Source: Sphaerisporangium rubeum (GTDB lineage Bacteria; Actinomycetota; Actinomycetes; Streptosporangiales; Streptosporangiaceae). From it: 64,000 nt of DNA. Positions 13,500-27,852 of the stretch are shown here, piece after piece. Position 1 is the stretch's first letter; every line of letters begins with the position of its first letter. A model generated the notes under the pieces. The model was not told where the DNA came from, did not search any database, and saw nothing but the letters and a program-made list of their open reading frames with translations. The position numbers and the translations under genes are program-made. The stretch covers positions 1,426,001 to 1,490,000 of the forward strand of contig NZ_JACHIU010000001.1 of NCBI RefSeq assembly GCF_014207705.1. The letters are read 5' to 3'.

Positions 13500-14693
13500 G
13501 TGGCCAAGGCCAAGTTCGAGCGGACCAAGCCGCACGTGAACATCGGCACCATTGGGCACATCGACCACGGCAAGACCACTCTGACCGCGGCGATCACCAA
13601 GGTGCTCCACGACCGGTTCCCTCACCTCAATGAGGCGACTCCGTTCGACAAGATCGACAAGGCGCCGGAGGAGAAGGCCCGAGGCATCACCATCTCCATC
13701 GCGCACGTCGAGTACCAGACCGAGAAGCGGCACTACGCTCACGTGGACTGCCCCGGTCACGCCGACTACGTGAAGAACATGATCACGGGTGCGGCGCAGA
13801 TGGACGGCGCGATCCTCGTGGTCGCCGCCACCGACGGTCCGATGCCGCAGACCAAGGAGCACGTGCTCCTGGCCCGCCAGGTCGGTGTGCCGTACATCGT
13901 CGTCGCGCTGAACAAGGCCGACATGGTGGACGACGAGGAGATCCTGGAGCTCGTCGAGCTCGAGGTGCGCGAGCTCCTCTCCGCTCAGGAGTTCCCGGGT
14001 GACGACCTGCCGGTCGTGCGCGTCTCGGCGCTGAAGGCGCTCGAGGGCGACGAGAAGTGGGGCGACTCCATCATCGAGCTCATGAACGCCGTGGACGACA
14101 ACGTCCCCGAGCCCGTTCGTGACACCGAGAAGCCGTTCCTCATGCCGATCGAGGACGTGTTCTCGATCACCGGCCGCGGCACCGTCGTGACCGGCCGTAT
14201 CGAGCGCGGCATCGTCAAGGTCAACGAGACCGTCGACATCATCGGCATCAAGGAGAAGAGCACCACGACCACCGTCACCGGTGTCGAGATGTTCCGCAAG
14301 CTCCTTGACGAGGGCCGGGCCGGTGACAACGTCGGTCTGCTCCTGCGCGGCATCAAGCGCGAGGACGTCGAGCGCGGCCAGTGCATCATCAAGCCGGGCA
14401 CGACCACCCCGCACACCGAGTTCGAGGCGCAGGTCTACATCCTGTCCAAGGACGAGGGCGGCCGCCACACGCCGTTCTTCAACAACTACCGCCCGCAGTT
14501 CTACTTCCGCACCACGGACGTGACGGGCGTCGTGACCCTGCCGGAGGGCACCGAGATGGTCATGCCCGGTGACAACACCGAGATGACCGTCCAGCTCATC
14601 CAGCCGATCGCGATGGAGGACGGTCTCAAGTTCGCCATCCGTGAGGGTGGCCGCACCGTCGGTGCCGGCCGCGTCACGAAGATCATCAAGTAG
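13500..14693 (+). CDS. tuf: Elongation factor Tu
   Basis: Encodes 397 aa from GTG 13500, with AAGGAG at 13486-13491. The GTPase motifs are GHIDHGKT (19-26), DCPGH (83-87) and NKAD (138-141). The domain II and III patterns that bind aminoacyl-tRNA ([21 protein letters not shown]) are normal. The Gly in LLRGIKRE, whose loss is associated with resistance to GE2270-type elfamycins, is retained. EF-Tu delivers aminoacyl-tRNA to the ribosome. Last gene of the str operon. Confidence 0.98.
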
Positions 14694-14706
14694 TTCGACC
14701 GCGGGT

Positions 14707-14742
14707 CGGCGGCCGGGCTCGGGAGACCGGGACCGGCCGCCG
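14707..14742 (+). terminator. Terminator-like hairpin after tuf
   Basis: A perfect 10-bp stem (CGGCGGCCGG at 14707-14716, CCGGCCGCCG at 14733-14742) has extra inner pairing but no T tract. It could attenuate rather than fully end transcription into the S10 operon. The remaining 217 bp before rpsJ show no clear promoter. Confidence 0.5.
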
Positions 14743-14959
14743 CACCACGAGGGGGCCACCTCAGGGCGGCCCCGGAGCCCACAGCGGGCCCGCACCCCGG
14801 GCCAGGCCGTGATCTCGCAGCAGGCTCGTTCCTGATGGCCGAGACGGCTGCAAGATCACGGAGGCATGCGCGTCCGGGTCACCGCACAGGTGGGACACGC
14901 CAAAGCGGCACAGGCCGCACGAAACTTGTTGGACGACAGCGAAGGACACCGAGGCCACT

Positions 14960-15268
14960 ATGGCGGGACAGAAGATCCGCATCCGGCTTAAGGCCTATGA
15001 CCACGAGGTCATTGACGTCTCGGCCAAGAAGATCGTCGAGACGGTGACGCGTACCGGCGCGAAGGTCGCGGGCCCGGTGCCGTTGCCGACCGAGAAGAAC
15101 GTGTACTGCGTCATCCGCTCGCCGCACAAGTACAAGGACAGTCGCGAGCACTTCGAGATGCGCACGCACAAGCGGCTGATTGACATCATCGACCCGACGC
15201 CGAAGACCGTCGACTCGCTCATGCGTCTCGACCTCCCCGCCGGCGTCGACATCTCGATCAAGCTCTGA
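14960..15268 (+). CDS. rpsJ: 30S ribosomal protein S10
   Basis: Encodes 102 aa from ATG 14960. The sequence [18 protein letters not shown] and the loop [19 protein letters not shown] are typical S10. S10 belongs to the 30S head and, in E. coli, also pairs with NusB in antitermination. First gene of the S10 operon; rplC follows after 14 bp. Confidence 0.98.
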
Positions 15269-15282
15269 GGGAACGCACTGAC

Positions 15283-15936
15283 ATGGCTAAGCAGATCAAG
15301 GGCGTCCTGGGCAAGAAGCTCGGCATGACCCAGGTCTTCGACGAGGGCAACCGGATCGTCCCGGTCACCGTCGTCGAGGCCGGTCCGTGCGTGGTGACCC
15401 GTGTCCGCACTGAGGACAGGGACGGCTACTCGGCCGTCCAGCTCGGCTACGGGCAGGTGGACCCGCGCAAGGTGAACAAGCCCCTGGGTGACTACCTGCG
15501 TAAGCACGACATCACCCCGCGCCGCTACTTCACCGAGATCCGGACCCCGGACGCCTCCGACTACGAGATCGGCCAGGAGCTCCTCGCCGACACCTTCGAG
15601 GCCGGCCAGTTCGTGGACGTCACCGGCAAGAGCAAGGGCAAGGGCTTCGCCGGTGTCATGAAGCGTCACGGCTTCAAGGGCCTCGGCGCCTCGCACGGCA
15701 CCCAGCGCAAGCACCGTTCGCCGGGTTCCATCGGCGGGTGCGCGACCCCCGGCCGCGTCTTCAAGGGCGTGCGCATGGCGGGCCGCATGGGCAACGTCCG
15801 CACTACCGTCCAGAACCTCAAGGTGCACGCCGTGGACGCCGAGAAGGGCATCATCCTGATCAAGGGTGCGCTCCCCGGTGCCAACGGCAGCCTCGTTCTC
15901 ATTCGCACCGCCGCCAAGAAGGGGGCCGACAAGTGA
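15283..15936 (+). CDS. rplC: 50S ribosomal protein L3
   Basis: Encodes 217 aa from ATG 15283. Contains the L3 signature [16 protein letters not shown] and the extended loop around [23 protein letters not shown] that reaches the peptidyl-transferase centre. It is an early assembly protein of the large subunit. Its stop overlaps the rplD start (GTGA), consistent with coupled translation. Confidence 0.98.
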
Positions 15937-16583
15937 GCACCACCATCGACGTCCTCGACCCGGCCGGCGCGAAGACCGGGACGGTCGAGCTGCCGGAGGC
16001 CGTCTTCGGCGCCAAGGTCAACATCCCGCTGATCCACCAGGTCGTGGTCGCGCAGCTCGCCGCTCGCCGGCAGGGCACGCACAAGACCAAGACCCGTGGC
16101 GAGGTCCGCGGCGGCGGCAAGAAGCCGTACCGCCAGAAGGGCACCGGCCGGGCCCGCCAGGGTTCGACCCGCGCGCCGCAGTTCACCGGCGGTGGCGTCG
16201 TCCACGGCCCGGTGCCGCGCGACTACTCCCAGCGGACCCCGAAGAAGATGAAGGCCGCCGCGCTGCGCGGAGCCCTCAGCGACCGGGCGAACGGCGGCCG
16301 TGTGCACGTCGTCAGCGGCCTCGTCGACGGGGACACCCCGAAGACCCGCGCGGCCATCACGGCCCTGCGCAAGATCTCCCAGGCCCGCAGCGTTCTCGTC
16401 GTCCTCGACGAGAACGACGAGCTGTCCTGGCTGAGCCTGCGCAACGCCCCGGAGGTCCACCTCCTGTCGGCGGGCCAGCTCAACACCTACGACGTGCTCG
16501 TCCACGAGGACGTCGTGTTCACCCGCGAGGCGTACGACCAGGTCGTCGCCCGGCTGAGTGACAGCGGGAAGGAAGAAGCCTGA
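15933..16583 (+). CDS. rplD: 50S ribosomal protein L4
   Basis: Encodes 216 aa from the GTG at 15933 that overlaps the rplC stop by 4 nt. The exit-tunnel loop ([23 protein letters not shown]) is complete, with no sign of macrolide-resistance changes. L4 lines the nascent-chain tunnel; in E. coli it autoregulates the S10 operon, and whether it does so here is unknown. The stop overlaps rplW (TGATG). Confidence 0.97.
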
Positions 16584-16885
16584 TGGAGAAGATCACCGAC
16601 CCGCGTGACGTCATCATCAAGCCGGTCGTCTCCGAGAAGAGCTACGGCCTGATCGACGAGCACAACAAGTACACGTTCCTGGTGCGCAAGACGGCCAACA
16701 AGACGCAGGTGAAGATCGCCATCGAGCAGATCTTCGGCGTCAAGGTCACGGGCGTCAACACGATCAACCGCCAGGGCAAGCGCAAGCGGACCCGGTTCGG
16801 CTACGGCCAGCGCCCGAGCACCAAGCGGGCCATCGTCAGCCTCGCCGAGGGCGACCGGATCGACATCTTCGGCCCGGTCGGCTGA
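16583..16885 (+). CDS. rplW: 50S ribosomal protein L23
   Basis: Encodes 100 aa starting at the ATG that overlaps the rplD stop. It carries [18 protein letters not shown] and the Lys/Arg-rich loop [22 protein letters not shown]23 stands at the tunnel exit and docks trigger factor and SRP. Normal length for actinobacteria. Confidence 0.97.
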
Positions 16886-16933
16886 CCCCTTCCGCACCGC
16901 ACCGCATCACTGATTGAAGGATGAACGAAAAAG

Positions 16934-17767
16934 ATGGGCATCCGTAAATACAAGCCGACGACACCCGGTCGTCGCGGCGCGAGCGTCTCGGACTTCGCCG
17001 AGCTCACGCGCAGCACGCCGGAGAAGTCGCTGCTTGCCCCCTTGCACAGCAAGGGCGGCCGCAACGTCCACGGCCGGGTGACCGCGCGTCACCAGGGCGG
17101 CGGGCACAAGCGCGCGTACCGGATCATCGACTTCCGGCGGCACGACAAGGACGGCATCCCGGCCAAGGTCGCGCACATCGAGTACGACCCGAACCGCACG
17201 TCGCGCATCGCGCTGCTTCACTACGCGGACGGCGAGAAGCGTTACATCCTCGCCCCCACCGGCATCAAGCAGGGCGACCGCATCGAGAACGGCCCCGCGG
17301 CCGACATCAAGCCGGGCAACTGCCTGCCGCTGCGCAACATCCCGACCGGTACCTTCATCCACGCCGTGGAGCTGAAGCCCGGTGGCGGTGCCAAGCTCGG
17401 CCGTTCGGCCGGCGCGCAGATCCAGCTCCTGGCCAAGGAAGGTCAGCTCGCCACGCTGCGCATGCCCTCGGGTGAGATGCGCCAGGTCGACGTGCGCTGC
17501 CGCGCCTCGGTCGGCCAGGTGGGCAACGCCGAGCAGGCCAACATCAACATCGGTAAGGCCGGCCGTAACCGCTGGAAGGGCAAGCGTCCGACCGTCCGCG
17601 GTGTCGCGATGAACCCGGTCGACCACCCGCACGGTGGTGGTGAGGGCAAGACCTCCGGTGGTCGCCACCCGGTGAACCCCAAGGGCAAGCCCGAGGGCCG
17701 CACCCGCCGTGCCAACAAGGCCAGCGACCGGCTGATCATCCGTCGGCGGAGCAAGAAGAAGCGGTAG
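16934..17767 (+). CDS. rplB: 50S ribosomal protein L2
   Basis: Encodes 277 aa. Contains the invariant [13 protein letters not shown] segment; His231 matches the E. coli His229 near the peptidyl-transferase centre. N-terminal RNA-binding and SH3-like domains and the basic tail are complete. L2 is needed for subunit joining. The ATG at 16934 follows an A-rich GGATGAACGAAAAAG segment; an overlapping ATG at 16921 is out of frame. Confidence 0.98.
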
Positions 17768-17778
17768 GAGCAGCGTAA

Positions 17779-18057
17779 ATGCCACGTAGCCTTAAAAAGG
17801 GTCCTTTCGTTGACGACCACCTGATGAAGAAGGTGGACACGCAGAACGAGAAGGGCACCAAGAACGTCATCAAGACGTGGTCGCGGCGCTCCATGATCGT
17901 GCCGGACATGCTCGGCCACACGATCGCCGTCCACGACGGCCGCAAGCACGTCCCGGTGTTCGTCACCGAGTCGATGATCGGCCACAAGCTGGGCGAGTTC
18001 GCGCCGACGCGGACCTTCCGCAGCCACGTCAAGGAAGACCGGCGTAGCCGGCGGTAA
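17779..18057 (+). CDS. rpsS: 30S ribosomal protein S19
   Basis: Encodes 92 aa from ATG 17779. [18 protein letters not shown] at the N-terminus and [23 protein letters not shown] near the end are textbook S19. It binds the 16S head together with S13. Cotranscribed between rplB (11 bp gap) and rplV. Confidence 0.98.
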
Positions 18058-18085
18058 AGCGCCTTCAGGAAACGAGGAGTAAGCG

Positions 18086-18454
18086 ATGGAAGCCAGGGCT
18101 CAGGCGCGGTTCGTCCGTGTCACGCCCCAGAAGGCCCGCCGTGTGGTGGACCTCATTCGCGGGCTGCCCGCTTCGGAGGCGCAGGCCGTGCTGCAGTTCG
18201 CCCCCCAGGCGGCGAGCGAGCCGATCTACAAGGTGCTGTCGAGCGCGGTCGCGAACGCCGAGCACAACTACAAGCTCGATCGCGAGACGCTGGTCGTGAG
18301 CCGCGCGTGGGTGGACGAGGGGCCGACGCTGAAGCGGTTCCGTCCCCGCGCGCAGGGTCGTGCCTATCGGATCAACAAGCGGACGAGCCACATCACTGTG
18401 ATCGTCGAGTCCCGGCCCGAGGGCCAGGGCAGGCCGAAGGGAAGGACCCGCTAG
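18086..18454 (+). CDS. rplV: 50S ribosomal protein L22
   Basis: Encodes 122 aa with GAGGAG upstream of ATG 18086. The core ([15 protein letters not shown]) and the long beta-hairpin that enters the exit tunnel ([22 protein letters not shown]) are intact, with no tunnel-loop insertion. Its TAG stop shares one base with the GTG of rpsC. Confidence 0.97.
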
Positions 18455-19299
18455 TGGGCCAGAAGGTTAACCCGCACGGGTTCCGACTCGGCATCACGAC
18501 CGACTTCAAGAGCCGGTGGTACGCCGACAAGCTGTACAAGTCGTACGTCGCCGAGGACGTCGCGATCCGCCGCATGCTGCAGAAGGGCATGGAGCGGGCC
18601 GGCATCTCCAAGGTCGAGATCGAGCGCACCACCGACCGTGTCCAGGTCGACATCCACACCGCCCGGCCGGGCATCGTCATCGGCCGCCGCGGCGCCGAGG
18701 CGGACCGCATCCGTGGCGACCTCGAGAAGCTGACCAAGAAGCAGGTCCAGCTCAACATTCTCGAGGTCAAGAACCCCGAGGTCGACGCTCAGCTCGTCGC
18801 CCAGGGCGTGGCCGAGCAGCTGTCCAGCCGGGTGTCGTTCCGGCGGGCCATGCGCAAGGCCATGCAGTCGGCGATGAAGAGCGGCGCCAAGGGCATCCGT
18901 GTCCAGTGCTCCGGTCGTCTCGGCGGCGCCGAGATGTCGCGGTCGGAGTTCTACCGCGAGGGCCGTGTGCCGCTGCACACCCTTCGCGCGGACATCGACT
19001 ACGGCTTCTACGAGGCCCGCACCACCTTCGGCCGCATCGGCGTGAAGGTGTGGATCTACAAGGGTGAGGCCCCGACCAGCCGCGCCGAGCGTGAGGCCCA
19101 GGCGGCCGGCGCGCGGGCCGGCCAGCGCCGGGACCGCACCGACCGTCCGCAGCGCGGCGGCCGTGGCGCCGGTGGCGGCCGTGGCCGTGACGGCGGCGGC
19201 CCCCGTGGTGGCGGCCGTGGCCCGCGGACCGAAACCCCCGCGCCCGCTGGGGCGTCCGAGAGCGGCCCGGCCGAGCAGCCGGGTGCTGAAGGGAGCTGA
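18454..19299 (+). CDS. rpsC: 30S ribosomal protein S3 with RGG-rich tail
   Basis: Encodes 281 aa from GTG 18454, which overlaps the rplV stop and gives the canonical [12 protein letters not shown] start. The KH domain [15 protein letters not shown] and the C-terminal S3 domain ([31 protein letters not shown]) are complete by about residue 215. The last 65 residues are low-complexity Arg/Gly repeats ([24 protein letters not shown]) and an acidic Pro/Ala tail. Actinobacterial S3 proteins often carry variable tails. S3 forms the mRNA entry channel. Confidence 0.97.
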
Positions 19300-19301
19300 C
19301 C

Positions 19302-19718
19302 ATGCTGATCCCGCGCAGGGTCAAGCACCGCAAGCAGCACCGGCCTGACCGCAGTGGCGCCGCCAAGGGCGGCACCAGGGTCACGTTCGGTGAGTTCGGC
19401 ATCCAGGCGCTTGAGCACCACTACGTGACCAACCGCCAGATCGAGGCCGCGCGTATCGCCATGACCCGGCACATCCGCCGTGGCGGCAAGGTGTGGATCA
19501 ACATCTTCCCCGACCGCCCGCTGACCAAGAAGCCGGCCGAGACCCGCATGGGTTCCGGTAAGGGTTCGCCGGAGTGGTGGATCGCGAACGTCAAGCCGGG
19601 TCGCGTGATGTTCGAGCTGTCCGGTGTGTCCGAGCCGGTGGCCCGTGAGGCCCTCCGGCGCGCGATGCACAAACTCCCGATGAAGTGCCGGTTCGTCAAG
19701 CGCGAGGTCGAGGTCTGA
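19302..19718 (+). CDS. rplP: 50S ribosomal protein L16
   Basis: Encodes 138 aa from ATG 19302, two bases after rps[16 protein letters not shown] and the loop [24 protein letters not shown] identify L16, which contacts the A-site tRNA elbow. Its TGA (19716-19718) overlaps an ATG that opens an 18-codon frame leading exactly to rpmC. Confidence 0.98.
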
Positions 19719-19774
19719 TGACGCGCGTGATCAAGGACGTCCGGACTGTGAAGCGTGAAGTGGGTGAGGCGTGA
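19718..19774 (+). CDS. Putative 18-codon bridging mini-ORF between rplP and rpmC
   Basis: ATG 19718 overlaps the rplP stop (TGATG). The frame runs 18 codons ([18 protein letters not shown]) and stops at TGA 19772-19774, which overlaps the rpmC ATG, again as TGATG. The reading frame therefore fills the intergenic gap exactly. It contains the purine-rich GGGTGAGG that could serve rpmC. The peptide has no recognised family. It may only carry ribosomes from one cistron to the next; that is inference, supported by two similar cases at 21671 and 23413. Confidence 0.45.
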
Positions 19775-20010
19775 TGGCCAAGGGCCTGACCGCCGGTGAG
19801 CTGCGGACTTCTGACCAGGACGAGCTGGTGCAGAAGCTCAAGGAAGCCAAGGAGGAGCTGTTCAACCTCCGCTTCCAGGCGGCGACCGGTCAGTTGGAAA
19901 GCCACGGTCGGCTCCGCGCCGTCCGGCGCGAGATCGCCCGTATCTACACCGTGATGCGCGAGCGCGAGCTCGGCATCGTCACGGTCGAGAAGGAGCCGAG
20001 CGATGGCTGA
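19774..20010 (+). CDS. rpmC: 50S ribosomal protein L29
   Basis: Encodes 78 aa from ATG 19774, preferred to the adjacent GTG at 19771 because ATG forms TGATG with the preceding mini-ORF and gives [11 protein letters not shown]. The helical hairpin with [17 protein letters not shown] is diagnostic. L29 lies at the tunnel exit beside L23. The end overlaps rpsQ by 8 nt. Confidence 0.95.
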
Positions 20011-20284
20011 GACAACAGAGACCACCAAGCAGGCGCGGAACTACCGCAAGACCCGTGAGGGTCTGGTCGTCAGCGACAAGATGGACAAGACCGTCGTCGT
20101 CGCCGTCGAGGACCGCGTCAAGCACCCGCTGTACGGCAAGGTCATCCGCCGTACGACCAAGTACAAGGCCCACGACGAGGGCAACACCTGCGGCGTCGGC
20201 GACCGCGTGCTCCTGATGGAGACCCGGCCGCTGTCCGCCACCAAGCGGTGGCGGGTCGTGGAGATCCTCGAGCGGGCCAAGTAA
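20003..20284 (+). CDS. rpsQ: 30S ribosomal protein S17
   Basis: Encodes 93 aa from ATG 20003, overlapping the end of rpm[41 protein letters not shown] is typical S17, an early binder of the 16S 5' domain. A 139-bp gap holding a strong hairpin separates it from rplN. Confidence 0.97.
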
Positions 20285-20327
20285 GTCGCTCAGGCGGGTC
20301 CCGCGAGGGGCTCGCCGGAGCGTCACC

Positions 20328-20354
20328 CCCGTCACCGGCGCGGCCGGTGACGGG
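20328..20354 (+). other. 12-bp stem hairpin between rpsQ and rplN
   Basis: CCCGTCACCGGC (20328-20339) and GCCGGTGACGGG (20343-20354) form a perfect stem over a 3-nt loop. There is no T run, so this is not a classical terminator. It could be an RNA-processing or attenuation site at the S10/spc boundary. Confidence 0.55.
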
Positions 20355-20423
20355 CGCATGAGACCAGAATCTAGTTCCGCCAGGCTCAGAGAATGAGAAC
20401 CGGCGTGACACACGGGAGTTGAC

Positions 20424-20792
20424 GTGATCCAGCAGGAGTCGCGGCTCAAGGTCGCCGACAACACGGGTGCCAAGGAGATCCTGTGCATCCGGGTGCTCGG
20501 CGGCTCGGGTCGGCGCTACGCGGGTATCGGCGACATCATCGTCGCGACGGTGAAGGACGCCCTTCCCGCCGCGGGTGTCAAGAAGGGTGATGTGGTCAAG
20601 GCTGTCGTGGTGCGCACCGCCAAGGAGCGCCGCCGCCCCGACGGCTCCTACATCCGCTTCGACGAGAACGCCGCGGTCATCATCAAGGACAGCGGTGACC
20701 CTCGGGGCACGCGTATCTTCGGTCCGGTGGGTCGCGAGCTGCGCGAGAAGAAGTTCATGCGCATCATCTCGCTCGCGCCGGAGGTGTTGTAA
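20424..20792 (+). CDS. rplN: 50S ribosomal protein L14
   Basis: Encodes 122 aa from GTG 20424 with GGGAG at 20414-20418. [28 protein letters not shown] and the ending [12 protein letters not shown] are canonical. L14 forms part of the subunit interface and binds the silencing factor RsfS in other bacteria. The rplX ATG follows directly after its stop. Confidence 0.98.
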
Positions 20793-21101
20793 ATGCCGAA
20801 GCTGCATGTGAAGAAGGGTGACCTCGTCCTGGTCATCGCCGGTAAGGACAAGGGTGCCAAGGGCCGTGTGATCCAGGCGCTGCCGCGGGAGGACCGCGTC
20901 ATCGTCGAGGGTGTCAACATGGTCAAGAAGCACTCCAAGGTGACCCACCAGGGTCCGCGCGGCGCCAAGGAAGGCGGCGTGCAGACCATGGAGGCCTCCA
21001 TCCACGTGAGCAACGTCAAGAAGCTCAAGGATGAAGAGAAGAAGGACGACAAGCCCGCCAAGAAGGCCGCCAAGGCCGACGAATCGGGTGAGGACAACTG
21101 A
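20793..21101 (+). CDS. rplX: 50S ribosomal protein L24
   Basis: Encodes 102 aa from ATG 20793, no gap from rplN. A KOW motif ([22 protein letters not shown]) and NMVKKHSK follow. The last 25 residues form a Lys/Ala/Asp tail ([15 protein letters not shown]). L24 is an assembly initiator. The stop overlaps rplE (TGATG). Confidence 0.97.
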
Positions 21102-21670
21102 TGACCGCCACCACTGAGACCAGGCCCGCGCCTCGCCTCAAGGAGCGTTACCGCGCGGAGATCGCCGACAAGCTCCGCGAGCAGTTCGGCATCGAGAACG
21201 CCATGCAGATCCCCCGGCTCACCAAGATCAAGGTGAACATGGGTGTCGGCGAGGCGGCTCGGGACTCCAAGCTGATCGAGGGCGCCGTCCGCGACCTGAC
21301 CGCCATCACCGGTCAGAAGCCGGCCGTCGCGCACGCGCGCAAGTCCATCGCGCAGTTCAAGCTGCGTGAGGGCATGCCCATCGGCGCGCACGTGACGCTG
21401 CGCGGCGACCGCATGTGGGAGTTCCTCGACCGGCTGCTGTCGCTGGCCCTCCCGCGTATCCGTGACTTCCGCGGCCTTTCCCCCAAGCAGTTCGACGGCA
21501 ACGGGAACTACACCTTCGGCCTGACCGAGCAGGTGATGTTCCACGAGGTCGACCAGGACAAGGTGGACCGCCAGCGGGGCATGGACATCACGGTCGTGAC
21601 CACCGCGACCGACGACGACCAGGGCCGGGCGCTGCTCAAGCTTCTCGGCTTCCCGTTCAAGGACGCGTAA
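21101..21670 (+). CDS. rplE: 50S ribosomal protein L5
   Basis: Encodes 189 aa from the ATG overlapping rplX. The patterns [29 protein letters not shown] and [28 protein letters not shown] are diagnostic. L5 binds 5S rRNA with L18 and contacts the P-site tRNA. Its TAA is followed at once by a 12-codon GTG frame that leads into rpsZ. Confidence 0.98.
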
Positions 21671-21709
21671 GTGGCCGGGACGGCTGAGATTCGCGAAAGG
21701 AAGGCCTGA
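21671..21709 (+). CDS. Putative 12-codon bridging mini-ORF between rplE and rpsZ
   Basis: GTG 21671 abuts the rplE TAA. The frame ([12 protein letters not shown]) ends in TGA 21707-21709, overlapping the rpsZ ATG as TGATG. The gap of 38 nt is thus completely open, and its end carries the GAAAGGAAGG that would be the rpsZ ribosome-binding site. This is one of three such gap-filling frames in the spc operon. Existence as a translated unit is inferred, not shown. Confidence 0.38.
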
Positions 21710-21894
21710 TGGCCAAGAAGTCCCTGATCGCCAAGGCGGCGCGCAAGCCGAAGTTCGGCGTCCGGGCCTACACCCGGTGCTCGCGGTGCGGGCGGCCTCG
21801 CGCCGTCTACCGCAAGTTCGGCCTGTGCCGCGTGTGCTTCCGTGAGATGGCGCACCGCGGCGAGCTGCCGGGCATCACCAAGTCGAGCTGGTAG
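21709..21894 (+). CDS. rpsZ: 30S ribosomal protein S14, type Z (zinc-binding)
   Basis: Encodes 61 aa, the short form of S14. Cys24, Cys27, Cys40 and Cys43 (CSRCG and CRVC) make a zinc ribbon, so this is the zinc-dependent paralogue. Actinobacteria often hold a longer zinc-free S14 elsewhere under Zur control; none is in this window. It binds late in 30S head assembly. Confidence 0.97.
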
Positions 21895-22069
21895 ACCCCG
21901 CGCGGGCTCCTCTTGCAGGGGCGGCGTCACGAGAGCCCCCTCCGGGAGGGGCCCGCACGGTGCCGGCCGCACATCGAAGAAGACATATCAACCGGGTGCC
22001 GCACACGCGGCGCCCACGACCACACCGTAGGTCCCATGCGGGAAACCGCGGTGAGGAGGGCCACCGGCC

Positions 22070-22468
22070 ATGACGATGACCGACCCGATCGCGGACATGC
22101 TTACGCGTCTGCGAAACGCGAATTCGGCGTATCACGACACCGTGAACATGCCGTACTCGAAGATCAAGGCGCACATCGCCGAGATCCTCCAGCAGGAGGG
22201 CTACATCCAGTCCTGGTCCGTCGAGGACGCCAAGGTCGGGAAGAACCTCGTGGTGGAGCTCAAGTTCGGGCCTACGCGTGAACGGTCCATCGCGGGCCTG
22301 CGCCGGGTTTCCAAGCCCGGTCTGCGGGTCTATGCAAAGAAGGACAACCTGCCCAAGGTCCTGGGCGGTCTCGGCGTCGCGATCATCTCGACGTCCGGTG
22401 GCCTCATGACCGACAAGCAGGCCGGCAAGCGTGGTGTGGGCGGGGAAGTCCTCGCCTACGTTTGGTGA
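22070..22468 (+). CDS. rpsH: 30S ribosomal protein S8
   Basis: Encodes 132 aa from ATG 22070 with GAGGAGG at 22053-22059; an in-frame ATG at 22076 is a less favoured alternative. [21 protein letters not shown] and the ending [14 protein letters not shown] are canonical. In E. coli S8 represses the spc operon. The 175-bp gap upstream contains only a 6-bp hairpin (CCCCTC/GAGGGG) near 21938-21955. Confidence 0.97.
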
Positions 22469-22487
22469 CGAGGGGAGGCACAACAGC

Positions 22488-23030
22488 ATGTCGAGAATTG
22501 GACGGCTGCCCATCCCCGTACCGAACGGTGTCGATATCACCATCGACGGCCGGGCTGTCACGGTCAAGGGGCCGAAGGGCACACTTTCGCACACCGTTGC
22601 GGAGCCGATCGAGGTCGGTCGCGGCGACGACGGGAACATCACCGTCTCCCGCCCGAACGACGAGAACAAGGTCCGCGCGCTGCACGGGTTGTCCCGCACG
22701 CTGATCGCCAACATGGTGGACGGCGTGACCAAGGGGTACAGCAAGACGCTGGAGATCCACGGCGTCGGCTACCGCGTCCAGGCCAAGGGCCCGACGCAGC
22801 TGGAGTTCTCGCTGGGCTTCAGCCACCCCGTGATCGTCGACGCCCCTGAGGGCGTGAGCTTCCGCGTCGACCGGCCGACCCTGTTCCACGTGGACGGCAT
22901 CGACAAGCAGAAGGTCGGCGAGGTCGCGGCGAACATTCGCAAGCTGCGCAAGCCCGACCCCTACAAGGCCAAGGGCGTGCGGTACCAGGGCGAAGTGATC
23001 CGCCGCAAGGTCGGAAAGGCTGGTAAGTAG
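22488..23030 (+). CDS. rplF: 50S ribosomal protein L6
   Basis: Encodes 180 aa from ATG 22488 after [38 protein letters not shown] and the ending [27 protein letters not shown] mark L6, which lies near the factor-binding site. It is followed two bases later by rplR. Confidence 0.98.
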
Positions 23031-23032
23031 TC

Positions 23033-23413
23033 ATGGCCTTCACCAAGATCGCCAAGCACAGGGCCGCGCGCGCTCTCTCGCGCTCGCGCCGTCACCGCCG
23101 CGTCCGCAAGAAGGTCGTCGGCTCGGCGGTTCGTCCGCGTCTGGTCGTCAACCGTTCCGCGCGGCACCTGTTCGTGCAGATCGTCGACGACACCGCCGGT
23201 CACACGCTGGTGAGCGCGTCCACCCTGGACTCCTCCCTGCGCACCGCCGACGGCACCAAGACCGACAAGGCGAAGAAGGTCGGCGAGCTCCTCGCTCAGC
23301 GGGCCAAGGCCGCCGGGATCAACGCCGTCGTGTTCGACCGCGGCGGCAACCGCTACGCGGGCCGCATCGCGGCGCTCGCGGACAGCGCCCGTGAAGGCGG
23401 GCTGGAGTTCTGA
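23033..23413 (+). CDS. rplR: 50S ribosomal protein L18
   Basis: Encodes 126 aa from ATG 23033. [34 protein letters not shown] and [28 protein letters not shown] are diagnostic of L18, the main 5S rRNA binder. Its TGA overlaps an ATG opening a 16-codon frame that leads exactly to rpsE. Confidence 0.98.
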
Positions 23414-23463
23414 TGTCTCCGGCCAGCAACGTGACCAAGAGCAATGAGGAGAGGAACCACTGA
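23413..23463 (+). CDS. Putative 16-codon bridging mini-ORF between rplR and rpsE
   Basis: ATG 23413 overlaps the rplR stop (TGATG). The frame ([16 protein letters not shown]) ends in TGA 23461-23463, overlapping the rpsE ATG (TGATG). As at 19718, both junctions are overlapping stop-start pairs and the gap has no untranslated base. The GAGGAGAGG inside it is the likely rpsE ribosome-binding site. No family is recognised. Confidence 0.45.
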
Positions 23464-24095
23464 TGGCTGCAGCTCCGCGTCGCGGCGCCGGCGGCGGTGG
23501 TGAGCGGCGTGACCGTCGCGACGATCGCCGCGGTGGTGCCGCAGACAAGGGCGTCTCGTACATCGAGCGCGTCGTGAAGATCAACCGGGTGGCCAAGGTC
23601 GTCAAGGGCGGCCGGCGCTTCAGCTTCACCGCCCTGGTCGTCGTCGGCGACGGCAACGGCCTGGTCGGTGTCGGCTACGGCAAGGCCAAGGAGGTGCCCG
23701 CGGCGATCGCCAAGGGTGTCGAAGAGGCCAAGAAGCACTTCTTCAAGGTGCCGCGCATCCAGGGCACCATCCCGCACACCTCGCAGGGCGAGGACGCCGC
23801 GGGTGTCGTGCTGCTGCGTCCGGCGTCCGCCGGTACCGGTGTCATCGCCGGCGGCCCGGTGCGCGCCGTGCTGGAGTGCGCCGGCATCCACGACGTGCTG
23901 TCGAAGTCGCTCGGCTCCGACAACCCGATCAACATCGTCCACGCCACCGTGGCGGCTCTGAAGGGCCTCAGCAGGCCCGAGGAGATCGCGGCGCGCCGTG
24001 GGCTCCCGATCGAGCACGTGGCCCCCGTACGCATGCTCAAGGCCCGCGCCGAGGGCATCGCCGAGGCCGCGGCAGCCGCCAAGGCGGTGAGCTGA
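23463..24095 (+). CDS. rpsE: 30S ribosomal protein S5
   Basis: Encodes 210 aa. A low-complexity Gly/Arg/Asp N-terminus ([20 protein letters not shown]) precedes the double-stranded-RNA-binding domain ([26 protein letters not shown]) and the C-terminal domain ([19 protein letters not shown]). The Gly/Arg tail is common in actinobacterial S5. It takes part in accuracy and mRNA entry. rpmD follows after 3 bp. Confidence 0.97.
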
Positions 24096-24098
24096 CCG

Positions 24099-24281
24099 AT
24101 GGCGCGTCTTCGGATCACCCAGGTCCGGTCCAAGATCGGTGGCAAGCAGAACCAGCGCGACTCGCTTCGCTCGCTGGGCCTGAAGCGGATCGGCGACGTC
24201 GTCGTCAAGGAGGACCGCCCCGAGGTCAGGGGACAGGTCGCCAAGGTGACGCACCTCGTCGTGGTTGAAGAGGTCGAATAG
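24099..24281 (+). CDS. rpmD: 50S ribosomal protein L30
   Basis: Encodes 60 aa. [29 protein letters not shown] is the L30 signature. The length is normal for the short bacterial form. It lies between rpsE and rplO with gaps of 3 and 2 bp. Confidence 0.97.
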
Positions 24282-24283
24282 TC

Positions 24284-24751
24284 ATGGCTAACGCAGAGAA
24301 CAACGAGCGTCCGCTCGGTATCCACGACCTGCGGCCGGCCAAGGGAGCCAACCGCGCCAAGGTCCGCAAGGGCCGCGGCGAGGCCTCCAAGGGCAAGACC
24401 GCCGGTCGTGGCACCAAGGGCACCAAGTCCCGTTCCAAGGTCCCTCTCGGCTTCGAGGGCGGCCAGGTTCCGCTCCAGCGGCGGCTGCCGAAGCTCAAGG
24501 GCTTCTCCAACGCGCTGTTCAAGACGACCTATCAGGTCGTGAACCTGGACAAGCTCGGCGAGCTGTTCCCCGACGGCGGAGACGTCACGGTGGACACCCT
24601 CGTGGAGCGTGGCGCGGTACGCAAGAACCAGCCGGTGAAGGTCCTGGGAACCGGCGACATCTCGGTGGCGTTGAACGTGCGAGCGCACGCTTTCTCCGCC
24701 TCCGCGAAAGACAAGATCGCTGCGGCCGGTGGCTCCGTCACCGAGTTGTAG
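24284..24751 (+). CDS. rplO: 50S ribosomal protein L15
   Basis: Encodes 155 aa from ATG 24284. The Gly/Lys-rich N-terminus ([38 protein letters not shown]) is characteristic. L15 is a late assembly protein. It is the last gene of the spc group, followed by hairpins and secY. Confidence 0.97.
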
Positions 24752-24765
24752 GCGGTGCAGTGCGA

Positions 24766-24836
24766 GGCGCGGAGGATCACTGTGAGCCTCCGCGCCCGTA
24801 GTGCGTTAGAGTGCGCTGGACAGAGGGGCTGTCCAG
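24766..24836 (+). other. Two hairpins between rplO and secY
   Basis: The first has a perfect 10-bp stem (GGCGCGGAGG at 24766-24775, CCTCCGCGCC at 24787-24796). The second has an 8-bp stem (CTGGACAG at 24816-24823, CTGTCCAG at 24829-24836) with loop AGGGG. Neither has a T run. They may mark partial termination or an mRNA-processing point upstream of secY. Confidence 0.5.
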
Positions 24837-24919
24837 GGTTCATTGATCAGAGATGTGCCGATGGATCACTCCCAGACCTTCGCTGACCCAAACCGCCTGA
24901 AAGGCGCGCAGGAGGGGCC

Positions 24920-26227
24920 GTGCTGACCGCGATTACCCGGGCGTTCCGTACGCCCGACCTGCGCAACAAACTGCTGTTCACGCTAGGAATCATCGCGTTG
25001 TTCCGGCTGGGCTCGGTGCTTCCGACGCCCGGCGTGCACACGACCAACGTCGAGCAGTGCTTGAAAGAGGCGCAGGCGAGCGACGCCGCCAACATCTACG
25101 GCATGGTGCAGTTGTTCAGCGGTGGCGCACTGCTGAAACTTTCCGTGTTCGCACTCGGAATCATGCCGTACATCACCGCGAGCATCATCCTTCAGTTGCT
25201 CACCGTGGTGATCCCGCGCCTGGAGGCCCTGAAGAAGGAGGGGCAGGCCGGTAACGCCAAGATCACGCAGTACACGCGTTACCTGACCATCGGCCTCGCG
25301 GTCCTCCAGTCGACCGCGTTCGTCGCGCTGGCCCGCACCGGGCAGCTCTTCCCGAACTGCCGCCAGTCCGTCCTGGTGAACCAGGACGTCTTCACCATCG
25401 TGACCATGGTCATCACCATGACCGCCGGCACCTCGGTGATCATGTGGCTCGGTGAGCTCATCACCGACCGCGGCGTCGGCAACGGCATGTCGATCCTGAT
25501 CTTCACTCAGGTCATCGCCGTCTTCCCGTCCGAGCTGCTGAACATCTTCCGCCAGAACGCCTTCACCTTCGTCGTGGTGATGGTGGTCGGAGTGTTCATG
25601 ATCGCGGCGGTCGTGTTCGTGGAACAGGCGCAACGCCGCATTCCCGTGCAGTACGCCAAGCGCATGGTGGGACGCCGCATGTACGGCGGCACGTCCACCT
25701 ACATCCCGCTGAAGGTGAACCAGGCGGGCATCATCCCCGTCATCTTCGCCTCCTCGCTGCTGTACCTCCCGCAGCTCGTGGTGTCGCTCTTCGGCCAGCA
25801 GCAGAACCCGAACGCCGTCGTCGAGTGGCTGGCGCAGAACCTCGTCACCGGCGACCACCCGGTGTACATGATCACGTTCTTCGTGCTGATCATCTTCTTC
25901 ACGTACTTCTACGTGTCCATCACCTTCAACCCCGTTGAAGTCGCGGACAACATGAAGAAGTACGGTGGATTCATCCCAGGCATCCGTCCGGGACGGCCGA
26001 CCGCCGAGTACCTCAGCTACGTGCTCATGCGGTTGACCGCCCCCGGCTCGCTCTACCTCGGCCTGATCTCCATGGTCCCGATCATCGCTCTGGCGGTGGC
26101 GGGTGCGAGCCAGAACTTCCCGTTCGGAGGCACGAGCATTCTGATCATGGTTGGAGTTGGGCTGGACACCGTGAAGCAGATCGAGAGCCAGCTGCAGCAG
26201 CGGAACTACGAGGGCTTCCTCAAGTAG
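24920..26227 (+). CDS. secY: Protein translocase subunit SecY
   Basis: Encodes 435 aa from GTG 24920 with GGAGGGG at 24911-24917. Ten membrane helices are visible. The plug and pore region ([30 protein letters not shown]) and the cytoplasmic loop ([43 protein letters not shown]) are standard. It forms the Sec channel in the plasma membrane. Its TAG shares one base with the adk GTG. Confidence 0.98.
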
Positions 26228-26880
26228 TGCGCCTCGTCCTGGTCGGGCCCCCCGGAGCGGGCAAGGGGACACAGGCCCAGTTCATCGCATCGAACCTGTC
26301 CATCCCGAAGATTTCGACAGGTGACATCTTCCGTGCCAACGTGTCGGGCGGCACGGAACTCGGCAAGCTTGCCAAGGAGTACATGGACCGTGGAGACCTC
26401 GTGCCCGACGAGGTCACCATCGCCATGGTCCGCGACCGCCTCGCGAAGCCGGACGCGCAGGAGGGCTTCCTGCTGGACGGCTTCCCGCGGAACGTGCCGC
26501 AGGCGCAGACGCTGAACAAGATGCTGGCCGAGTTCGGCACCTCGCTCGATCTCGTCCTCGAGCTCGTCGTCGACGACGAGGAGGTCGTACGGCGGCTGGC
26601 GGGGCGCCGCACCTGCCGTTCCTGCGGCAAGGTGTGGCACGTGGTGTTCGATCCCTCCTCCAAGGAGGGGGTGTGCGATGTCTGCGGTGGCCAGTTGTTC
26701 CAGCGCGACGACGACCGCGAGGAGACGATCCGCCACCGGCTGGTCGTCTACCAACAGCAGACCGCGCCGCTGATCTCGTTCTACGCCGACGAGGGCATCC
26801 TGCACGGGGTGGACGCGACCGGCCCGGTGGAGGAGATCACGCAGCGCGCGATGCAGGTCCTGCGTCGTTTCGCCGACTGA
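26227..26880 (+). CDS. adk: Adenylate kinase (zinc-lid type)
   Basis: Encodes 217 aa from GTG 26227. It has the P-loop [10 protein letters not shown] (7-16), the AMP-binding region ISTGDIFR and the motif DGFPRN. The long LID domain carries Cys130, Cys133, Cys150 and Cys153, the four-cysteine zinc site. The enzyme interconverts ATP, AMP and ADP in the cytoplasm. The overlap with secY indicates coupled expression. Confidence 0.97.
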
Positions 26881-26909
26881 TCGAGTTCGCCGGCAGACAG
26901 AGAAGTTCG

Positions 26910-26938
26910 TTGGCCTACGCCACTTCTGGGGTGATACT
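26910..26938 (+). promoter_or_regulatory. Possible promoter upstream of map
   Basis: TTGGCC at 26910-26915, 17-nt spacer, GATACT at 26933-26938. The -10 lacks the preferred first T, so this is a weak call. It would give a leader of about 85 nt. Confidence 0.3.
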
Positions 26939-27027
26939 CCAGGGGTGGCGTTCGCCGTGTTGGGGGACAATCGGGGGAATCGCGACGCCTGCCCAGCCGT
27001 TGAACCCGCCCAGGGGGTGCCACTTCA

Positions 27028-27852
27028 GTGTTCAAGAAGAACAAGCACGGAATCCAGGTCAAGACGCCTGAGCAGCTCGGCAAGATGCGGGCCGCGGGTC
27101 TGGTGGTCGGACGCACGCTCGAACTGCTGCGGACGTCGGCGCGTCCCGGCATGACTCCGCTGGACCTGGACGCCATCGCCGAGAAGGCCATCCGCGACGA
27201 AGGCGCCGTGCCGTCCTTCAAGGGCTATCAGGGCTTTCCCGCGACCATCTGCGCGTCGGTCAACGACGAGGTGGTCCACGGCATCCCGGGGGACCACCGG
27301 CCGCTGCGCGAGGGCGACATCCTGTCCATCGACTGCGGTGCCATCCTCGACGGCTGGCACGGCGACTCGGCCATCACCGTGGCCGTCGGCGAGGTCGACC
27401 CGGCGCTCACCGAGCTGATGCGCGTCACCGAGGAGGCCATGTGGCGCGGCATCGCGGCCCTGGCCGTCGGCCGGCACCTGTCGGACGTCGGGCACGCGGT
27501 CGAGAAGTACGTGCGCTCTCAGGGCCGTTACGGCATCCCGCACGAGTACGGCGGCCACGGCATCGGCACCGAGATGCACATGGACCCGTGGGTGGCCAAC
27601 CACGGCAAGCCCGGCCGGGGTCCGAAGCTGGAGGCCGGCATGTGCTTCGCCATCGAGCCGATGGTGAACCTCGGCACCGAGCGCACCAGGGTGCTCGCCG
27701 ACGACTGGACCGTCGTCACCGTCGACGGCAAGCCCTCGGCGCACTTCGAGCACAGCGTCGCCGTGACCGATAATGGGCCTTGGGTGCTTACTGCCCTTGA
27801 CGGGGGAGAGGCACGGCTCACCGAGTTGCTGGGAGGGCGAGCCGGTTCCTGA
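27028..27852 (+). CDS. map: Methionine aminopeptidase type I
   Basis: Encodes 274 aa from GTG 27028. The five metal ligands are Asp102, Asp113, His177 (GGHGIG), Glu210 (AIEP) and Glu241, with His84 in the substrate pocket. There is no N-terminal SH3-like zinc extension, so it is the short type Ia form. It removes the initiator methionine from nascent proteins. The secY-adk-map order is conserved in many bacteria. Confidence 0.97.
   Translation: MFKKNKHGIQVKTPEQLGKMRAAGLVVGRTLELLRTSARPGMTPLDLDAIAEKAIRDEGAVPSFKGYQGFPATICASVNDEVVHGIPGDHRPLREGDILSIDCGAILDGWHGDSAITVAVGEVDPALTELMRVTEEAMWRGIAALAVGRHLSDVGHAVEKYVRSQGRYGIPHEYGGHGIGTEMHMDPWVANHGKPGRGPKLEAGMCFAIEPMVNLGTERTRVLADDWTVVTVDGKPSAHFEHSVAVTDNGPWVLTALDGGEARLTELLGGRAGS

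Follow-up and report, generated by a model that had tools for sequence, protein, structure and literature searches.

Short reading frames between ribosomal-protein genes of Sphaerisporangium rubeum and other actinomycetes as probable product-free relays of translational coupling

Why should three gaps between ribosomal-protein genes each be filled, to the base, by a single tiny open reading frame (ORF)? The question is raised by a 64,000-nucleotide (nt) stretch of the 7.5-Mb chromosome of the actinomycete Sphaerisporangium rubeum (G000:C1:1426001-1490000, hereafter the window), in which the rplP-rpmC, rplE-rpsZ and rplR-rpsE gaps consist of one frame of 18, 12 and 16 codons, respectively (mini-ORFs 1, 2 and 3). 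All three close in TGATG, the last A of the TGA being the first base of the next ATG; mini-ORFs 1 and 3 also open in TGATG on the upstream stop, mini-ORF 2 opens with a GTG abutting a TAA, and each contains a Shine-Dalgarno (SD)-like stretch for the next gene. The original prediction had described these lengths, start types, closings and internal ribosome-binding sites, all of which are exact in the sequence, and had treated the three frames as one phenomenon through which ribosomes could pass. Our analysis indicates that the mini-ORFs are probably product-free relay cistrons, which would preserve termination-reinitiation coupling between the flanking genes. They are, however, not one set: the rplR-rpsE frame belongs to a class-wide relay and the rplP-rpmC frame is a sporadic insert, while rplE-rpsZ is a weak case. 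The features concerned are the following.

19302..19718, + strand: rplP (L16), C-terminus VKREVEV followed by the stop, TGA at 19716-19718
19695..19709, + strand: VKREV codons, copy in the rplP tail, as read in the sequence
19718..19774, + strand: mini-ORF 1, 18 codons, ATG at 19718 overlapping the rplP stop, TGA at 19772-19774 overlapping the rpmC ATG
19748..19762, + strand: VKREV codons, second copy, in the family-typical spelling, within mini-ORF 1
19762..19769, + strand: SD-like GGGTGAGG for rpmC, within mini-ORF 1
19774..20010, + strand: rpmC (L29), homologues placed by tblastn
21101..21670, + strand: rplE (L5), TAA stop at 21668-21670
21671..21709, + strand: mini-ORF 2, 12 codons, GTG at 21671 abutting the rplE TAA, TGA overlapping the rpsZ ATG (A at 21709)
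21696..21704, + strand: SD-like AAAGGAAGG for rpsZ, within mini-ORF 2
21709..21894, + strand: rpsZ (S14 type Z)
23033..23413, + strand: rplR (L18), TGA stop at 23411-23413
23413..23463, + strand: mini-ORF 3, the class-wide relay, 16 codons, ATG at 23413 overlapping the rplR stop, TGA overlapping the rpsE ATG
23446..23454, + strand: SD-like GAGGAGAGG for rpsE, within mini-ORF 3
23463..24095, + strand: rpsE (S5)

The same junctions were collected from 10 congeners, 50 other family members, 80 named actinobacterial loci and samples of the class and the phylum. Identical junctions were removed (deduplicated on their flanks), loci cut at contig ends were dropped, and start codons were chosen by a rule on SD, ATG and distance that was blind to TRATG. 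Besides the window, rplP matches were obtained in 56 family genomes, 51 of which were covered, and in the class sample 92 of 109 genomes with a match were covered (29 supplied loci, 60 fetched stretches and 3 added); the 17 left out were mostly the lowest-scoring, plus G146, at a contig end. The class set for rplR-rpsE comprises 213 unique junctions, nine with a direct overlap and 204 with gaps of 12-200 nt, and 124 of these gaps are bridged end to end by a frame, against 31.6 ± 4.9 when gap interiors were shuffled with random phase and 90.9 ± 4.6 when the shuffles kept phase and length. In the family 53 unique junctions remained, of which 45 are bridged and the other eight nearly so. The bridge occurs in all junctions from Streptosporangiales (6/6), Geodermatophilales (7/7), Mycobacteriales (4/4) and Frankiales (1/1), in part of those from Micrococcales (9/19), Pseudonocardiales (2/6) and Propionibacteriales (2/13), and in none from Kitasatosporales (0/5), Bifidobacteriales (0/1, nearly bridged) and Kineosporiales (0/1), so that seven of the ten named orders of Actinomycetia sampled have it. 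Set aside as an outgroup, 25 loci of the phylum sample gave 19 unique junctions and 14 gaps of 12-200 nt, one of them bridged. Streptomyces loci (L046, L069, L074, L075 and L077) and many from Nocardioides have neither the rplR-rpsE relay nor TRATG at rpsE, and their gap lengths span all three phases.

The strongest regularity concerns phase. In all 131 rows in which the rpsE ATG lies inside TRATG, no stop interrupts the frame between there and the end of rplR, and in 113 of these rows the frame begins at or over the rplR stop. When that stop was required, besides TRATG at rpsE, to overlap a start codon, a selection blind to frame, all 109 gaps were 1 mod 3, in spite of 22 distinct lengths between 16 and 160 nt; a junction that kept both overlaps with a broken frame, named beforehand as the result that would speak against the prediction, was not found among these 109 class junctions. 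On a tree of 108 of them (one class row was absent from it), again picked blind to phase, at least 63 length changes are required and no phase change, whereas 53 class rows scored as open, that is unbridged, require at least 40 length and at least 24 phase changes; phase is therefore held where both overlaps exist and not elsewhere. One could suppose that TGATG is kept at rpsE for its own sake and that the in-frame start at the rplR stop is coincidental, all the more so as L18 genes in these rows often end in TTCTGA, so that a following T-G yields TGATG cheaply. Such coincidence predicts about one third of gaps in a single phase, and the 109 of 109 observed refute it at rplR-rpsE; as an account of the relays in general it is highly improbable. 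Three control junctions of the same operon, selected for overlap signals at both ends, do look like chance, with 12 of 33 in frame at rpsZ-rpsH, 5 of 18 at rpsQ-rplN and 0 of 19 at rpmC-rpsQ.

If the frame is conserved, is its product conserved as well? The peptides of the relay ORFs differ among lineages and are rich in threonine (18.6%) and serine (12.4%) when compared to the genes of the genome (6.6 and 5.1%), with a distinctive codon make-up in which A-first codons are frequent. Synonymous-codon choice, scored by the usage of this genome, was best in the true frame in 82 of 117 ORFs (Wilcoxon p = 8e-12), as expected if the relay ORFs are translated. The same coding-like choice could be taken as the mark of a small functional protein, and congeners have most of the 16-residue rplR-rpsE sequence in common. 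However, the relay ORFs range from 6 to 53 codons, their peptides vary between lineages, and eight equal-length rplR-rpsE frames of the genus have 3, 5 and 6 variable columns at codon positions 1, 2 and 3, which over so few sites is not a protein-like pattern. Amino-acid conservation beyond DNA constraints, as expected of a conserved small protein, was not seen in the relay ORFs, and a micropeptide is disfavoured as a very unlikely explanation, the more so given the rplP-rpmC inserts described below.

At rplP-rpmC the usual state is a direct overlap, found in 163 of 186 unique class junctions (the gap of L030 depends on the start picked and is 1 nt under an alternative start). An insert occurs in eight of 61 family genomes, namely the window, L125, L154, L155, L158, L159, L166 and L172, and all eight are bridged, seven by a single relay and L155 by two in series, because of which L155 fails a single-ORF test. 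Its gap of 159 nt holds two near-identical 80-nt copies of the rplP tail, and TGATG occurs three times in a row. Compared with the rplP tail of their own genome, five inserts (L125, L154, L155, L158 and L159) score 73-90 against shuffle maxima of 26-32 and are clearly copies of the rplP tail plus TGATG; L166 is marginal (34 against a shuffle maximum of 31) and L172 scores 30, below its best shuffle of 36. In the window, mini-ORF 1 ends in VKREVGEA and the stop, as L16 itself usually does in relatives, and this ending carries the rpmC SD. The window's L16, whose closest named matches are from Microbispora and Sinosporangium, now ends in VKREVEV, where VKREVGEA or something close to it is found in most of the family. 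It is on account of the VKREVGEA ending of mini-ORF 1 that the window insert may be taken for an rplP-tail duplicate. The inserts are scattered on the family tree, with seven changes, at least six of them forced by well-supported branches.

These duplicates also bear on the product. The core that they derive from rplP, ACAAG-TCCC-ATG, keeps its native phase (1) in L125, L155 and L159, whereas L154 reads it in phase 0 and L158 in phase 2, and despite these three phases the frame closes in TGATG, with its tail in frame, in five of five inserts. Since homologous insert DNA is read in three different frames and nevertheless stays open, the product looks dispensable, and since the core phases differ while the tail stays in frame, insertions and deletions appear to be balanced within the mini-ORF, as selection on a frame without a product would predict. 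The suggestions that the frame would be kept in relatives while the peptide drifts, and that the frame rather than the product matters, are thus supported at both rplR-rpsE and rplP-rpmC, by the single phase, the varying peptides and the three reading frames of the inserts. The five inserts have in common ATGCTSTGC or a close form (ATGCTGCGC in L154) where rplP has ATGAAGTGC, as well as about 13-15 extra bases, though their genomes are spread over the family tree; either an old duplication with many losses or transfer may account for these shared features.

The sporadic, scattered nature of the rplP-rpmC inserts, together with the nine class junctions at rplR-rpsE that overlap directly, would fit a neutral ratchet, in which a relay offers no gain over direct overlap, only in-frame insertions survive at a coupled junction and, once there, they are hard to remove. 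That the relays have outlasted at least 63 length changes, and that their codon make-up is distinctively threonine- and serine-rich and A-first, suggests upkeep instead, and we regard the ratchet as quite improbable; moreover, it addresses why relays persist and not how they work. Another possibility is coverage, not coupling: a translated frame would keep ribosomes on the RNA and shield the gap from Rho or RNases, which would likewise keep the frame uninterrupted while leaving the peptide free to vary, and protection of mRNA by translation of a mini-gene has been argued for axe-txe in a passage of PMC8708949. Against coverage, longer gaps of the same operons are unbridged, rpsQ-rplN and rpsZ-rpsH stand near chance, and on the S10 side (up to 78 loci, gaps of 12-200 nt) none of 72 gaps was bridged at rplW-rplB and none of 62 at rplB-rpsS, so that this reading appears improbable. 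Bridging was also rare at rpsJ-rplC (1/61), rpsS-rplV (2/54), rpmD-rplO (1/11) and rplO-secY (0/44), and the relays therefore favour particular junctions, without a sharp limit.

The rplE-rpsZ frame cannot be ranked as an equal third case and was downgraded, its start being loosely coupled in congeners. Among 11 genomes of the genus this gap measures 37-40 nt in five (window included), is a direct overlap in four and 2 nt in two, and all five longer gaps hold a frame that stays open as far as a closing TGATG; L126 also has a GTG overlapping the stop by 4. Outside the genus, the gaps of L163 and L008 (55 and 40 nt) are bridged end to end, the frame of L164 is open but lacks a start codon, and L173 carries a tandem insert that is unbridged. 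The junction is compatible with sporadic relays, although the case is not strong, and for the window's rplE-rpsZ frame taken by itself chance is a tangible, if still the less likely, explanation. A GGATCGCAA(C)AAGGAG-like motif recurs in the rplE-rpsZ gaps of L121, L126, L128, L163 and L173 and in several rplR-rpsE gaps. A 16-base GGATCGCAA-type probe from the relatives' gaps gave 73 matches in 10 genomes with up to two mismatches, against 20 for the reversed control and with a maximum of 14 per genome, and the three mini-ORFs with short flanks match only themselves in their own genome (E <= 0.001), being single-copy. A dispersed high-copy repeat was rejected on these grounds, although the matches of the probe exceed those of the control.

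Nor do the relays reflect a habit of the whole genome. A home-made gene finder was run on 864 kb (the window plus 40 stretches of 20 kb) and called 703 genes covering 81% of bases, an incomplete set, among which 218 same-strand gaps of 12-200 nt were found. The downstream start lies inside TRATG in eight of them, and three of the eight are bridged from the upstream stop, exactly mini-ORFs 1-3; this run scored TRATG ends and not ATGA-type ends. A stricter run that scored the latter (569 genes, 159 gaps) returned five bridged gaps, of which two belong to mini-ORFs 1-3 and three are of ATGA/GTGA type, and its 15 ATGA-type double-overlap gaps fell into the three phases as 7, 6 and 2, that is, without phase being held. 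A genome-wide relay habit was rejected, as it was not seen in the 864 kb for TRATG ends, nor at the S10-side junctions.

How could a relay work? A ribosome ending the upstream ribosomal-protein gene would restart at the overlapping start codon, translate the short frame and terminate on TGATG, where the same ribosome, or another loaded on the exposed SD, would start the next gene. The selected trait would be a stop-to-start frame that is unbroken and encloses the downstream SD, with the peptide as a by-product, and relays may keep or restore coupling where bases have been inserted between genes whose counterparts in relatives overlap directly; the rplP-rpmC insert would have been born by duplication of the upstream gene tail together with its TGATG junction. 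Mini-ORFs 1 and 3 have a stop/start overlap of 1 or 4 nt on either side, mini-ORF 2 on its 3' side. Upstream of each mini-ORF start, within the upstream gene, there are 4-5 bases of anti-SD complementarity, a mild signal considering that at least four such bases occur at about one third of background positions inside rplR. Unfolding of RNA structure as the means was rejected: the rpsE start region is, if anything, less structured than shuffles in bridged rows (mean z +0.81) and in open rows (+0.37), and reinitiation is therefore favoured over unfolding, at the level of inference. The mini-ORFs, which were compared with leader peptides in the 5' leader of a transcript too, each sit between two ribosomal-protein genes. 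A known structured RNA leader was rejected after Rfam gave no match over window positions 14000-27500 at E up to 0.1.

Several observations weigh against the relay interpretation. Eighty of the 204 rplR-rpsE gaps have no end-to-end bridge, among them those of Kitasatosporales (5/5) and Propionibacteriales (10/13) scored as open, so that the relay is dispensable in some lineages. Eighteen of the 131 TRATG rows are nearly but not fully bridged, with a start 1-19 nt past the rplR stop in 16 and no start in two, and when ATGA-type ends are included the frame is kept at 114 of 119 double overlaps and fails at five. At rplE-rpsZ, the window is the only one of the five congeneric gaps in which the start abuts the rplE stop, the others starting 8-11 nt after it, and the duplication signal of the window's mini-ORF 1 is weak in the DNA (24 against shuffles of 15.7 ± 2.8, maximum 26). 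Several long gaps in the same operons carry no relay, and specificity for particular junctions is not absolute, as double overlaps are in frame in 5/5 cases at rpsH-rplF (gaps of 13-25 nt) and in 2/2 at rplX-rplE. Finally, the low structure at the rpsE start speaks against unfolding without proving reinitiation.

Some of these exceptions can be described further. The five failures are L050, L054, L057, L066 and L073, in which the start picked for rpsE is probably an internal GTG. In eight rows (these five with L080, L081 and L244) the frame of rpsE itself runs back unbroken to the GTG that overlaps the rplR stop, and they look as if the relay became an N-terminal extension of S5, or the reverse. 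The in-frame cases at rpsH-rplF and rplX-rplE may be further relays or chance, the numbers being small. The rpsH-rplF rows are L041, L231, L239, L287 and L307, in each of which the rpsH stop lies in GTGA, the rplF start in ATGA and the two are in frame; this is possibly a fourth relay junction.

Known systems resemble the relays in part. Gene pairs coupled by termination-reinitiation, as portrayed in portions of PMC10666635 and PMC12548453, have the same -1/-4 overlaps, an SD within the upstream frame and products that are subunits of one complex; unlike them, a relay has as its upstream partner a frame of 6-53 codons without a conserved product, which overlaps a real gene at its 5' end. Mycobacterial interspersed repetitive units (MIRUs) are described in part of PMC12548453 as short, apparently mobile repeats at start codons, with -4 spacing and an internal ORF coupled to the downstream gene, so that their insertion does little harm; the relay ORF likewise overlaps the downstream start, whereas the window's mini-ORFs are no dispersed repeats but single-copy sequences at given ribosomal junctions, with mostly -1 (TGATG) overlaps. 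The axe-txe mini-gene is also a tiny cis-acting ORF near a start codon, whose distance to the start matters, but it has two codons, its own SD and lies in the AU-rich leader of an internal promoter, according to the section of PMC8708949 that deals with it. A survey of small ORFs in Mycobacterium tuberculosis lists 50 whose start or stop codon overlaps one belonging to a neighbour, including 16 inside operons (an extract of PMC11133741). The original prediction took such relays to be apparently undescribed, and this holds in part: we recognised no account of relay ORFs between rplR and rpsE or in ribosomal operons in the open-licence PMC literature, prior mention elsewhere being possible, yet the idea of short ORFs without a product that deliver ribosomes to a coupled downstream gene is in print, for upstream ORFs and synthetic bicistronic designs, in a passage of a 2025 review (PMC12548453). 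Those ORFs act upstream, whereas the relays lie between two genes and overlap both ends. The apparent novelty lies in the placing of a relay between two cistrons for ribosomal proteins, and in how such relays are conserved and originated.

In Escherichia coli, the feedback of S8 on the spc operon acts through translational coupling. In E. coli and Haloferax volcanii about 20 nt between genes nearly abolish coupling, as stated in part of PMC10666635, and gaps of the size of the relays would therefore need a bridge; on both grounds, a relay would tie S5 to L18 and L29 to L16. The relays amount to a natural, replicated experiment on translational coupling, since scanning over tens of bases would not need frames and their upkeep is therefore evidence that the coupled ribosome must reach the next start by translating. 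They also combine conservation of a protein-coding kind (frame, codon choice, lengths in threes) with the lack of a conserved product, which matters for the calling of small proteins from comparative or ribosome-profiling data, and they point to gene-tail duplication as a simple route to the birth of short ORFs. Taken together, the balance tips somewhat towards a class of cistrons selected for their frame alone at a fixed ribosomal-protein junction, with a drifting product, new members of which arise when a gene tail is duplicated in tandem along with its stop/start junction, and which are able to chain, as in L155, or to fuse in frame to the next protein, as with S5 in some Micrococcales.

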